Below, one piece after another: positions 4,603-10,382 of a stretch of 10,382 nucleotides of DNA. Origin of the DNA: Chamaesiphon sp. (GTDB taxonomy: Bacteria > Cyanobacteriota > Cyanobacteriia > Cyanobacteriales > Chamaesiphonaceae). The notes beneath the pieces were generated by a model. It made no database searches. It saw only the letters and a program-made list of their open reading frames with translations, and had not been told where the DNA came from. The first letter of the stretch is position 1, and every line of letters starts with the position of its first letter. The stretch covers positions 1-10,382 of the forward strand of contig JAJAYU010000385.1 in the NCBI GenBank assembly GCA_026786125.1, in the 5' to 3' direction. The position numbers and the translations under genes are program-made.

Positions 4603-4670
4603 AATTCTACTAAAATTACTAGATAGTCTCGATCGCTTAGAAAGCAGACTGTGGAATTAATGAGTGGCTC

Positions 4671-4712
4671 ACCATCGACCATCCACCATCCACCATCCAC
4701 CATCCATTGTCC
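4671..4712. repeat. 7-bp tandem array upstream of hemL
   Basis: On the plus strand there is one ACCATCG, four exact ACCATCC copies (4678-4705) and a degenerate ATTGTCC (4706-4712). It lies 79 bases before the hemL start, in the 245-base space between the holin-like gene and hemL. On the minus strand the array stays open and would encode a Trp-Met-Val-Asp-Gly-rich peptide, which is an artefact of the repeat. Confidence 0.9.
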
Positions 4713-4780
4713 ACTTTCAATCACTAACCACTTATAACTAACCACTATAAGTACTACTTAAAATTTTAGCTTTAACAGTT

Positions 4781-6321: not shown

Positions 6322-9003
6322 ATGGACATTTACTGTACTCGTCTTTATTGCGAACAACCACTAAACTCGTTTGTCGATCTAGATGATAGTAAATTATTAG
6401 AAACTGCAACTCAACAGCATTGTGCTAATTGTGGTATGTCGTTAATTTTAGAGGGACGTTATGTGCCCCTAAAATTGTTGCAAGATGACGAACTCAGCAC
6501 AACTTTTCTGGGCAGAGATCTACATGCGCCAGAACTTAGATATTGTACGATCGAGCAATTACAGCTCGATCCTAGTTTTAGTCCTAGCCAAATCGAAATT
6601 GCGACCAAAATATTTGATCGTGAAGTTAAAGTTTTAGGGAAGTTGGGCGAACATCCCAAAATTCCACGGCTACTAGATTCATTAGAAATATTTGCCCCTG
6701 TTGCTCCAGATCATTTACCTCAAAAGTTTCTGTACTTAGTTCAAGAATATATTGATGCTAAAAGTTTAGATGCTGAATTACTCGCCCAGGGCAAATTTAC
6801 GGAAGCAGAAGTTATTGTTGTATTGAAAGAAGTTGCGAGAATTCTAGAATTTGTTCACTTTCAAGGAGCGATTCACCGAAATATTAAACCAGCAAAGATC
6901 CTCCGCGACTCACTCGGCAAAATCTACCTCACTGATTTTGGCGCGGTGAAGCAAATTAATAATGAGACAGGTGAAATGAGTGAGGATCTGTTATCCCGCA
7001 AATCAAAGTCTGGATTTAGACTAGAATATACTCTGTCAAATCAGTACTTAAGACCAGAAATATACCCATCTTCAGATTTGTATAGTTTAGCTGTGACCTG
7101 CATCAATTTACTCACAGGTAAACAGCCTAACGATCTATTTAATATTGATACAAATATTTGGTACTGGCGAACTCCAGATCTTCATGTGAGTGATTTCTTG
7201 GCAGCTATTCTCGATCGAATGTTGCAACAACTTCCCACCAATAGATTTGGATCGGCTAGAGATGTATTGGATGCTTTAGATGATAATTTAGGAATACCGA
7301 TCCTGAGTATTCCAGCAGATATGTTCGCTGAAAATGGAGCTAGTCCTAGTACTCTGATCCTCGACAAACCTTACGATGATCCTTTTCAGTTAGACAGTAG
7401 TTTTTTTGAACTAGACGATGATTTTATTCAGCTCGATCGTGATTTATTTCAATTAGATGATCGTTTATTTGAAGATGAAAAATCTTCGCTATCACTCAGT
7501 ATTGCTCCGTTACAAATCATTCCCAAAGTCACAGCTAAATCTAATCAACCGTGGCAGAAAGTTGGCATATTAGCGGTGGGAATTGCTGGTTTGAGTGCAA
7601 TGATTATTCCTGGCTTTTGGCAATTGTTCGATCAAAAACCGACGATGAGTGATACACTCACCCAGGATGTTCAGACTGCCATGATTCGCTACAGTAGCAT
7701 GGGTGAAAGGATTTTAGTCGGGATTGAAGGCGATCGTGATACTGACAAATTCAAGGAATTGAAAAGATTGGGAGTTGCAGCGATCGCTAGCAAGAATTAT
7801 CCTGAAGCTGTGATTAAGTTACAAGCAGCTTTAGTCGAAAATCCTAATTCACCAGAAACTCGAATTTATCTCAATAATGCGTTAGTCGGTGACAAGAAAA
7901 GTTATACAATTGCGGTCGCTGCCCCAATTGAGAGATCCCTTGATCGAGCCTCCGAAATGTTACGCGGATTTGCTCAGGCTCAAGCAGAAATCAATCAAGT
8001 TGGTGATATTAATGAAGCTAAAATTAAGTTAAGAATAATTGATGATAGCGACAATCCAAAAACGATTGAAAGTATTGCTAGAGCCGTCGTAAATTTACCT
8101 GAGGTACTCGGTATTGTCGGTCATAATCGCAATGAAGTCACGATCAAAGCCGCCAAGATTTATAATCGCAAAAAACTAGCATTTATTGCCCCGATTAGTA
8201 CTGCCGTTAAATTAACCGGAACCAACGAACCATATATTTTTAGGACTAATGCTAAGGCAGATGCGATCGCTAGTAAGCTAGTCGATCATCTAGTTAACAT
8301 CGATCGTAAACGTAAAGTAGCAATTTTTTATGTACCAACTATTGCCTCTAATAATGAATTCAAAACTCAATTTGCCAATAAATTAGCTGCTAAAGGCGGC
8401 AAAGTCGTAGGGACTTTTCCATTTTCCACTGTAGCTTCGACTGGATCGCCTAGGGCTAGTTTTACCCCAGCTTTTGATGCTGAAGCTCACCTCAAACAGG
8501 CGACAAATATGGGTGCCGAAGCAATTTTGTTGCTATCGACTGGACGCTCTAGTCGCGAGGCTCTAAAAGTCCTCAAGCTTCGAGCTGATAAATATCCCAA
8601 ACTGGAGGTGTTGAGTGATACTGGTTTGTATAGTCTCAATACGCTGAAGTTTGGTAGAGATGCGCGGGGTTTGATCATGATTGTGCCGTGGCAAGAATCA
8701 GAAAGTAGCCCTCAATTCTCTACAGGTGCCAAGCAGTTATGGAATACTCAAGTTAACTGGGCAACTGCCACATCCTATAACTCTGTGAAGGCTCTAGGTG
8801 CTGCAATCAAAGCCCAAGAGTCACCCTCTCGAACTGGTGTAATGAAGAATTTGGCTAAAAATGAATTTATGGGTGCGTCTGGGCGATTTCAGTTCAAAAA
8901 CGGCGAATCAACCGAACGCTATATTCTCGTCAAAGTGGGTGAAACTCCAGCTAATTATAAATACTCTTCGAGAATGGGCTATGATTTTTTGCCATTGGAG
9001 TAA
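6322..9003 (+). CDS. Zinc-ribbon/pseudokinase/TM/TPR/periplasmic ligand-binding fusion protein
   Basis: An 893-residue receptor-like protein. Domains in order: a four-cysteine zinc-ribbon-like start (C5, C10, C34, C37); a Ser/Thr-kinase-like domain (about 46-320); an acidic linker with a seven-residue repeat (355-382); one transmembrane helix (about 414-436); a TPR-like helical pair (about 478-520); and a type 1 periplasmic binding domain of the branched-chain amino-acid receptor kind (about 527-885). The layout is that of cyanobacterial proteins named kinase/ABC substrate-binding bifunctional. Here kinase residues are lost: the VIKQ lysine is Glu78 (CTIEQ), HRD is HRN (Asn187), and the following Asn is Lys192. 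The glycine-rich loop has no glycines. DFG (205-207), the helix-C Glu101 and SDLYSL (251-256) remain. I infer cytoplasmic signalling by a non-catalytic kinase fold, controlled by an external ligand. No ribosome-binding site is visible. It stands alone between the hemL hairpin and recJ. Confidence 0.9.
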   Translation: MDIYCTRLYCEQPLNSFVDLDDSKLLETATQQHCANCGMSLILEGRYVPLKLLQDDELSTTFLGRDLHAPELRYCTIEQLQLDPSFSPSQIEIATKIFDREVKVLGKLGEHPKIPRLLDSLEIFAPVAPDHLPQKFLYLVQEYIDAKSLDAELLAQGKFTEAEVIVVLKEVARILEFVHFQGAIHRNIKPAKILRDSLGKIYLTDFGAVKQINNETGEMSEDLLSRKSKSGFRLEYTLSNQYLRPEIYPSSDLYSLAVTCINLLTGKQPNDLFNIDTNIWYWRTPDLHVSDFLAAILDRMLQQLPTNRFGSARDVLDALDDNLGIPILSIPADMFAENGASPSTLILDKPYDDPFQLDSSFFELDDDFIQLDRDLFQLDDRLFEDEKSSLSLSIAPLQIIPKVTAKSNQPWQKVGILAVGIAGLSAMIIPGFWQLFDQKPTMSDTLTQDVQTAMIRYSSMGERILVGIEGDRDTDKFKELKRLGVAAIASKNYPEAVIKLQAALVENPNSPETRIYLNNALVGDKKSYTIAVAAPIERSLDRASEMLRGFAQAQAEINQVGDINEAKIKLRIIDDSDNPKTIESIARAVVNLPEVLGIVGHNRNEVTIKAAKIYNRKKLAFIAPISTAVKLTGTNEPYIFRTNAKADAIASKLVDHLVNIDRKRKVAIFYVPTIASNNEFKTQFANKLAAKGGKVVGTFPFSTVASTGSPRASFTPAFDAEAHLKQATNMGAEAILLLSTGRSSREALKVLKLRADKYPKLEVLSDTGLYSLNTLKFGRDARGLIMIVPWQESESSPQFSTGAKQLWNTQVNWATATSYNSVKALGAAIKAQESPSRTGVMKNLAKNEFMGASGRFQFKNGESTERYILVKVGETPANYKYSSRMGYDFLPLE
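7384..7467 (+). repeat. Coding 21-bp repeat: acidic seven-residue linker repeat
   Basis: Residues 355-382 of the fusion protein are four seven-residue units: FQLDSSF, FELDDDF, IQLDRDL and FQLDDRL, followed by a partial FEDE. The pattern is aromatic/aliphatic-x-Leu-Asp-x-x-aromatic/aliphatic. Codons differ between units, so the repeat is kept at protein level rather than being a fresh DNA duplication. It lies between the kinase-like domain and the membrane helix. Confidence 0.8.
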
Positions 9004-9120: not shown

Positions 9121-9169
9121 TATCAATTATCAATTATCAATTATCAATTATCAATTATCAATTATCAAT
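9121..9169. repeat. Seven perfect 7-bp tandem repeats overlapping the recJ stop
   Basis: TATCAAT is repeated seven times without error across 49 bases. Read on the minus strand the unit is TAATTGA, the same unit as in the ycf35 leader array. The last copy contains the recJ stop codon (TGA, 9167-9165), and the final Asn codon is partly made from repeat sequence. Because seven is not a multiple of three and each unit holds TAA and TGA, the array has stops in all three frames in the recJ direction. Confidence 0.95.
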
Positions 9170-10382
9170 TATTTAACACTTGCATCGCACTCTTAATAAG
9201 CTGAAAGTAAAATGGCTTGGTAATATCGATCAATTCAATTGGTGCTGCTGGCTTAATTAGTTCTGCTACCTTTTGACCCTTATTTACAACTAAAGCTCCA
9301 CCCTGCTCATTAATAATAGTGATTCGCAATTTATCATCAGAAATACTACAATCATAATTGCGATCTTGATAGTTAAACTTATAGTTTTGGGCTGAAATTG
9401 GTAATCTGACACTCACAACTTCTAACTCGATCGATCTTGAATCACGCCAATTATTTTCTTTGAGTTTATAAGCGATATCTAAATATTTAGGTAATGGAAA
9501 ATAATCCCCAAATCGCCACGCGATCGCTTTTATTCCTCTGGGGAACTCTGGCGTGTCAACCGTAAATTTCAGATGTCCTTTGCCGACAATTTTTTGTTCG
9601 ATTACTCGCACATTTGCCGTCCAGAATACTGGATCGGGATTCTCCATTCCACAAGGATGAATTGCATCGATCTGTTGATAGAGAGACATGTTGATTGACG
9701 AGAGATCTGCTTCAGCATCAATTTTGACTAGATATTTTAGATGTTCAATTTCCAGGCATTTATGAGCAAATTCACTCAACCGCTGTTGAAGTTGTTCCAG
9801 GTTTTGAGTAGGCATTGAAAACCCACCTGCCGCTCGATGTCCACCATATTTACCTAATAGCTCGTCACAGTATTGCAAAGCATGGAATACATCAAACTCA
9901 GGAATACTCCGTGCCGAACCTCGAATGTGATGTTCGTCTTCATTGGTACCGATAAATACCGGAACACCATAGCGTTCGACTAACCGCGAAGCTACAATCC
10001 CAATTACCCCATGATGCCAACCAGGATGAACAATTACTAATACCCGATTTTGTTTAATATTGTAATTACCTTGCTCAATCAGATTGATCGCTTCTTGTTC
10101 GATCGCAGCACACATATCTTGACGTTGTTTATTTACCTGTTCACACTGAATTGCTCTGGCTAAAGCCACACTCATATCATCAGTTGTCAGCAAATTAATG
10201 ATAATCTGAGGATCGTCAATTCTACCGATCGCATTAATTCTTGGCCCTAATCTAAATCCAATATCTTCAGGCTTCATTGCCGTATTTTTTGCCGCAGTAC
10301 CACCTTGAGTTCCCGACATTTCAATTAAGGCTTGAATTCCGGTAACTTGCGAATTGGGTAATAATTGCAACCCCTGCTTGAC
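9165..10382 (-). CDS. recJ: Single-stranded-DNA-specific exonuclease RecJ, C-terminal part (runs off right edge)
   Basis: RecJ degrades single-stranded DNA 5' to 3' in recombination and mismatch or excision repair. The frame is open to the last base, so 405 residues of the C-terminal part are present; the catalytic DHH half lies outside. Visible are GFRLGPRINAIGRIDDP (about 10212-10262), the DHHA1 section with HHGVIGIVASRLVERYG, then KYGGHRAAGGFS (about 9818-9853), and an OB-fold-like stretch from MENPDPVFW onward. After this comes a further C-terminal extension of about 90 residues, ending KSAMQVLNN. A TTG at 10370 is internal Leu, not a start. The stop lies inside the heptamer array at 9121-9169, so the last two codons were probably shaped by the repeat. 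It converges on the fusion gene. Confidence 0.93.
   Translation of the reverse strand, partial: VKQGLQLLPNSQVTGIQALIEMSGTQGGTAAKNTAMKPEDIGFRLGPRINAIGRIDDPQIIINLLTTDDMSVALARAIQCEQVNKQRQDMCAAIEQEAINLIEQGNYNIKQNRVLVIVHPGWHHGVIGIVASRLVERYGVPVFIGTNEDEHHIRGSARSIPEFDVFHALQYCDELLGKYGGHRAAGGFSMPTQNLEQLQQRLSEFAHKCLEIEHLKYLVKIDAEADLSSINMSLYQQIDAIHPCGMENPDPVFWTANVRVIEQKIVGKGHLKFTVDTPEFPRGIKAIAWRFGDYFPLPKYLDIAYKLKENNWRDSRSIELEVVSVRLPISAQNYKFNYQDRNYDCSISDDKLRITIINEQGGALVVNKGQKVAELIKPAAPIELIDITKPFYFQLIKSAMQVLNN

Follow-up and report, generated by a model that had tools for sequence, protein, structure and literature searches.

A well-supported receptor pseudokinase with a type 1 periplasmic binding domain in the cyanobacterial genus Chamaesiphon

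The stretch of Chamaesiphon sp. DNA analysed here (10,382 nucleotides, denoted the window) encodes a protein of 893 residues, Q, which is probably a non-catalytic membrane receptor whose kinase lost catalysis once and in place, and whose kinase fold was afterwards constrained anew as a binding module. The outer type 1 periplasmic binding domain would sense a small solute and the inner kinase-like domain would act without phosphate transfer. Catalysis would have been lost in the ancestor of part of the genus, with no active copy surviving in the same genomes, and the protein would nevertheless have been kept. Ligand binding may, via the membrane segment, alter the pseudokinase and the adjoining linker, by which a partner, be it a second kinase or some other signalling protein, would be recruited or released, the likeliest docking site being an acidic array of Phi-x-Leu-Asp motifs. 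Seen in the sequences themselves are the loss of catalytic residues, a single gene copy, one clade of dead sequences, purifying selection and acidic motifs found in the linker of the dead proteins alone. The features of the gene, all on the forward strand, are as follows.

6322..9003, +, whole gene of the putative receptor pseudokinase (ATG at 6322, stop codon ending at 9003, 893 residues)
6322..6453, +, 4-Cys prefix, residues 1-44 (C5, C10, C34, C37), from NF045510 and alignment
6454..7296, +, degenerate kinase domain, residues 45-325, from Pkinase, alignment and the PknB fold match
6478..6507, +, lost glycine loop LQDDELSTTF, residues 53-62 (GGFG or GGLG in live orthologues)
6553..6555, +, Glu78 in place of the β3 (VAIK) Lys, from alignment with live orthologues
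6874..6882, +, HRN (185-187) in place of HRD, from alignment
6895..6897, +, Lys192 in place of the catalytic-loop Asn, from alignment
6934..6942, +, retained DFG (205-207), from alignment
7039..7041, +, Asn240 in place of the APE Glu, from alignment
7375..7479, +, acidic heptapeptide tandem repeat of the juxtamembrane linker (DDPFQLD SSFFELD DDFIQLD RDLFQLD DRLFEDE)
7552..7626, +, hydrophobic segment, residues 411-435, proposed membrane helix, from hydropathy
7756..7848, +, TPR-like stretch, residues 479-509, TPR_2 below its cut-off
7954..8937, +, type 1 periplasmic binding domain, residues 545-872, from Pfam and the Atu2422 fold match

The intact reading frame described in an earlier note on this DNA is correct in start, stop and coordinates. 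At the very N-terminus the NF045510 4-Cys prefix model matches residues 4-41 with 26.5 bits (cut-off 24), and the four cysteines are retained in all genus members, dead and live; this bears out the cyanobacterial four-cysteine kinase type named in that note. The Pfam Pkinase match spans residues 96-310 (E 3.7e-23, 82.7 bits against a cut-off of 31.7) and begins only at position 43 of the profile. By its sequence and fold likeness to Ser/Thr kinases Q falls within the protein kinase superfamily. Residues 545-872 match Pfam Peripla_BP_6 with E 7.4e-28. The hydrophobic segment 411-435 is preceded by three Lys/Arg within 15 residues and followed by one within 15, and on hydropathy and flanking charge a single membrane helix is proposed that would place the type 1 periplasmic binding domain outside. 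The profile of the TPR-like stretch also matches designed TPR proteins.

The AlphaFold2 model of Q (36 sequences, mean pLDDT 72.4, pTM 0.46) predicts a kinase of two lobes and the fold of a periplasmic binding protein; the modelled kinase matches PknB and the modelled binding domain Atu2422 (3ipc), each with a TM-score of 0.81 by target length. Amino-acid binding proteins head the match list of the modelled binding domain, and this fold match suggests a ligand of amino-acid type. The linker and membrane stretch 324-446 has a pLDDT below 50, likewise in the live model, and the proposed membrane helix is confirmed in neither model. The segment 231-250, harboring the lost APE region, has a mean pLDDT of 53-54 in the dead model and 71-79 in the live one.

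Alignment with the live genus orthologues, L018 (of genome G002) and L020-L022, which carry the β3 Lys as VIK, leaves the register unambiguous. The substitutions Lys to Glu78, HRD to HRN187 and Asn to Lys192 are placed as the earlier note had placed them, no Lys appears at the VAIK position and no Asp at the HRD position upon realignment, and the glycine loop is replaced (GGFG to DELS). DFG, Glu101 and the SDLYSL motif are retained, again as noted before, and so are His185, Arg186 and Lys189, while the exchange of the APE Glu240 for Asn is a further loss that had escaped that note. Out of the glycine loop, β3 Lys, HRD Asp, Asn, DFG and APE expected of an active Hanks-type kinase, DFG alone is intact in Q.

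Four further genus members are dead as well. L015 and L016 show the same states as Q at the catalytic positions and L017 departs only by Asp at position 78; L019 is dead in another manner, with Glu78, Gln101, HRE, NFG and Gly for the APE Glu, and with Asn192 retained. Thus DFG, Lys189, the His and Arg of HRx, and Glu101 are kept in four of the five dead proteins, L019 being also devoid of the DFG Asp and Glu101. With a pseudokinase defined by loss of at least one of the β3 Lys, the HRD Asp and the DFG Asp, two of the three are lost in the HRN clade and all three in L019. In 31 live fusions 28 kinase-domain residues are invariant, and exactly K78, D187 and E240 are changed in all five dead proteins, i.e. 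three of nine catalytic versus none of 19 other invariant positions (p 0.026). For the 65 positions conserved at 90%, those changed in every dead protein comprise 6/16 catalytic and 2/49 other positions (p 0.002).

An assembly or frame error was considered and rejected: HRN recurs in three other genomes, at identities of 95, 84 and 67%, and a fourth genome shows another dead state; since the same state is read in independent genomes, HRN is not an assembly slip. From these residues phosphotransfer would be absent, and nucleotide binding would be little or none. According to the available text of PMC4718504, nucleotide binding is not reliably predicted from sequence, with WNK and CASK as exceptions. 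That Q is a receptor pseudokinase, as the earlier note proposed, is well supported by the alignment, the dead-only substitutions and the constraint on the HRN clade described below.

All nine Chamaesiphon genomes searched contain one full-length match each, which is dead in five (G000, from which the window derives, G001, G006, G004 and G008) and live with intact motifs in four (G002, G003, G005 and G007). Additional matches at E up to 1e-40 are one protein with the binding domain only (G002) and two with the kinase only (G004). As three of the dead genomes are complete to 77, 82 and 89% only, a second copy could escape detection there. The live orthologues occupy the same locus as the dead gene. 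In all five dead loci hemL lies upstream and recJ downstream; in the live ones hemL is adjacent in G002 and 6.4 kb off in G007, recJ is about 4.7 kb off in G003, and the 12-kb contig of G005 contains neither. Among the gene neighbours there is no obvious candidate for a partner gene.

Live fusions of kinase and periplasmic binding domain with the same architecture are found in other cyanobacteria too (L073, L023-L025 and others, besides L018 and L020-L022). The 27 fusions from outside the genus comprise 20 listed places with open frames of 775-893 residues and seven from other searches; at most four candidates were scored per genome, so that fusion counts are counts among the matches listed, and two surveys at stricter thresholds gave 18/388 and 2/386 genomes. 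Frames near 640 residues and three longer frames (3065 residues, G375:C2; 1902, G409:C49; 1211, G191:C11), which also harbor the binding domain, stand outside this set. Most relatives of the binding domain, among the matches listed, are about 470-550 residues long and leave no space for a kinase. The 4-Cys prefix is common to the genus fusions and 10 of the 27 outside fusions. None of these 27 is dead, and the changes of Q are shared by none of them and by none of the four live orthologues, which answers the comparison with relatives asked for in the earlier note and disposes of the idea that atypical residues are widespread across the fusion family. All 27 retain the β3 Lys, the H[RC]D Asp and DFG. 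Contrary to Q, live fusions keep a GGFG-like loop, Lys, HRD, Asn, DFG and APE, with L077 as a variant (HCD, Ser189, and Ser192 for Asn).

Marker genes group G000, G001, G006, G002 and G004, followed by G008 (UFBoot 94, 75 and 96% in three treatments), and the concatenated markers join live G002 and dead G004 as sisters (100/100). Single genes are mixed with regard to this pair (pentapeptide gene 100, rpoC2 47), and hemL and purK place G002 elsewhere with support of 80 and 52; rpoB is absent from the G002 data and this genome is listed with 6% contamination. In the tree of the kinase half the five dead sequences form one clade, with L018 of G002 falling with or beside the live ones. For the kinase half, AU tests rule out the species tree (p 3e-5 for all sites, 1e-3 for third positions, 7e-5 for protein) and likewise a placement of L019 with live kinases (3e-5, 0.03 and 5e-5, respectively). 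The binding half is compatible with the species tree (0.55, 0.37 and 0.28), and the kinase-half topologies (trees 3/5) give 0.20/0.29 for all sites, 0.05/0.05 for third positions and 0.59/0.30 for protein. The latter are thus not clearly rejected, and whole-gene replacement in G002 is possible, too. Sitewise support for L018 outside the dead clade extends from residue 46 to about residue 405 and is mostly reversed thereafter (9 taxa, two topologies); this change of sign favours a recombination breakpoint in the G002 gene near residue 405. As G002 is a species nested among dead ones yet has a live kinase half, this half or the whole gene has most likely been exchanged: either G002 acquired a live gene, in full or only its kinase and linker half, or it was the dead half that passed from one species to another. 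The binding half of L017 (G004) is unusually fast, with the longest genus branch in the binding-half tree.

Because the dead kinase halves form one clade, a single conversion in place is likeliest, and the dead kinase most likely arose once. The derived text of the N-lobe is common to L019 and L017. With Lys and glycine loop lost in all five proteins and the HRD Asp replaced differently in L019, the simplest reading is that the β3 Lys was lost first.

Selection was estimated with a purpose-written codon model script (F3x4, branch classes). For the kinase domain omega is 0.226 over all dead branches, 0.097 over live and 0.415 over connecting branches; on the dead branches both omega = 1 (2dlnL 196) and equality with the live ones (2dlnL 26) are rejected. 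The HRN crown has a kinase omega of 0.174 (omega = 1 rejected with 2dlnL 182, equality with live with 2dlnL 10) and is constrained in both lobes, the HRN stem one of 0.489, with 1.04 in its N-lobe. In L019 the kinase omega is 0.386 (omega = 1 rejected, 2dlnL 7.8), and the N-lobe is indistinguishable from neutral (2dlnL 0.45). The binding domain shows no difference between dead and live (0.127 versus 0.105, 2dlnL 2). For the closest pair, Q and L015, omega is 0.39 in the kinase and 0.14 in the binding domain, pairwise values being noisy and several dS saturated. These values fit a burst after which the HRN clade came under constraint again, and a relaxation that persists in L019. The earlier claim of selection on the fold rather than decay therefore holds for the HRN clade, where neutrality is rejected, but needs tempering, as the constraint is weaker than in live kinases and the L019 N-lobe is near neutral. 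The frames are open in all five dead genes, and a pseudogene over the whole length is rejected on these open frames and on omega. Judged by the intact frame and by purifying selection once catalysis was lost, the dead proteins are kept for a function, less strongly so in L019.

The second trait setting the dead proteins apart lies in the juxtamembrane linker, in which acidic Phi-x-Leu-Asp motifs are common to all of them. Counts of [FILVW]x[LF]D are 5, 5, 4, 3 and 5 in Q, L015, L016, L017 and L019, respectively, as compared with 1, 0, 0 and 0 in the live genus members and 0, 0 and 1 in three outgroups; the acidic heptad linker as such is present in Q and missing from the live genus fusions and the three outgroups. 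Tandem Repeats Finder reports 7401-7470 with a period of 21. The lag-7 identity of the Q linker is reached in 0/20000 shuffles and its motif count in 32/20000. Q, L015 and L016 show a clear heptad register and L017 a partial one; L019 has none. In addition, the net charge of the N-lobe is -3, -1, -4, -2 and -3 in Q, L015, L016, L017 and L019, compared with +6, +3, +5 and +4 in live genus members and +2 to +6 in outgroups. The dead proteins being of common ancestry, their linker motifs and their charge represent a single event.

Could the kinase be an inert remnant that merely folds and anchors or dimerises the receptor, leaving the remaining function to the binding domain? The raised kinase omega of the dead branches at an unchanged binding domain, and the near-neutral N-lobe of L019, are in line with this, yet it is an unlikely explanation given the strong constraint on both lobes of the HRN crown, the retention of non-catalytic invariant residues and the patterned acidic repeat conserved in the linker. 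Improbable to a higher degree is that the domain still uses nucleotide or performs other chemistry. SelO and SidJ are pseudokinases with unorthodox chemistry. Both are named in the available texts of PMC12599244/PMC7586955, sequence is an imperfect predictor (PMC4718504, in its accessible part), and DFG, Lys189, the HRx His/Arg and Glu101 persist in four of the five proteins; on the other hand the N-lobe has become acidic, the glycine loop is lost and so are the β3 Lys, HRD Asp, Asn192 and APE Glu, and L019 has additionally lost the DFG Asp and Glu101.

Two independent losses, with G002 ancestral and the N-lobe likeness due to chance or long-branch effects, would account for the deviating changes of L019 (HRE, NFG, Q101) and for live G002 standing beside dead G004 on the markers, which without exchange only separate losses explain. 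This is very improbable, however, as protein, all-site and third-position tests (the last with p 0.03) reject L019 apart from the dead kinases, and the derived N-lobe text shared with L017 speaks against it as well. A bolder proposal, possible but doubtful, is that the locus occurs in the genus with two interchangeable output cassettes, a catalytic kinase and a non-catalytic one in which an acidic heptad docking array has taken over from phosphotransfer, and that these cassettes (kinase and linker, up to about residue 405) pass from species to species by recombination under an unchanged outer sensor. The reading as a non-catalytic receptor that lost catalysis once remains the probable one, and within it a role of the pseudokinase as scaffold or allosteric activator is a suggestion.

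Comparable arrangements are known from other systems. HER3 is a receptor tyrosine pseudokinase with known partner kinases. By analogy, such receptor tyrosine pseudokinases resemble the arrangement proposed for Q in having an outer ligand domain, a membrane segment and an inner non-catalytic kinase fold; HER3 is eukaryotic, its partner kinases are known and it has no common descent with Q as a receptor. The available text of PMC12599244 describes seven bacterial pseudokinase families (ActPs1-3, GLW, CP1, DYD and DLHK) along with EssB/YukC, and regards bacterial pseudokinases as experimentally little explored and grouped in old families distant from active relatives. As described there, these families share with Q a kinase fold whose ATP, catalytic or metal motifs have degenerated, and EssB/YukC, which works by interaction, is a transmembrane pseudokinase as is proposed for Q. 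In this portion of PMC12599244 no periplasmic-binding-protein receptor is described among the families, and the words periplasmic, substrate-binding and extracellular are absent. The cyanobacterial CP1, according to the same portion, has no transmembrane regions and is linked to a COG3899 ATPase domain; Q has a hydrophobic segment and a binding domain, and no such ATPase is found in it with Pfam at E 0.01. In actinobacterial PknG-GlnX-GlnH a periplasmic amino-acid binding protein is proposed to feed a Ser/Thr kinase via a TPR scaffold (PMC8546545, accessible part), but there three proteins and an active kinase are involved, as opposed to one non-catalytic polypeptide, and the TPR-like stretch of Q would, if the topology is right, lie on the outer side, unlike that scaffold. 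Eph receptor pseudokinases arose by duplication, as stated in the available text of PMC7586955; no duplicate is seen in the nine Chamaesiphon genomes. No fusion of a pseudokinase with a periplasmic binding domain turned up in a literature search largely confined to papers outside subscription.

Q is not the only degenerate kinase of the window genome, where three of 13 near-complete kinase matches, including Q, depart from the catalytic motifs, and the surprise is tempered accordingly. L168 (G000:C78:8801-9553) and L205 (G007:C1:3526232-3526849) carry Glu for the β3 Lys (CAIEEL and SIEEL) and a CPEH catalytic loop, with NFG in the former, from the window genome, and DFG in the latter; they possibly represent another genus-conserved pseudokinase. 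L170 (G000:C50:2961-3686) has HQN at the HRD position, DLG at the DFG position and an N-lobe that did not align. Elsewhere in the window, five intergenic tandem repeats with units of 7 bases or multiples thereof (454-518, 1381-1415, 4670-4706, 4722-4750 and 9121-9172, the last with 7.4 perfect copies) resemble cyanobacterial heptanucleotide repeats, and 545-982 on the reverse strand encodes a predicted ferredoxin-like protein with SGFEPELGG twice near its N-terminus.

With live orthologues at the very locus of the dead gene, the finding is somewhat stronger than was visible to the earlier note. Within one genus the live and the dead state are represented by single-copy orthologues of one locus and are directly comparable, the sister pair of live G002 and dead G004 being among the comparisons, and the set makes the order of the losses readable. 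Such a comparison could show what a receptor kinase does besides phosphorylation and, if the acidic linker is a new output, the locus would offer a testable example of how a kinase is turned into a docking receptor.
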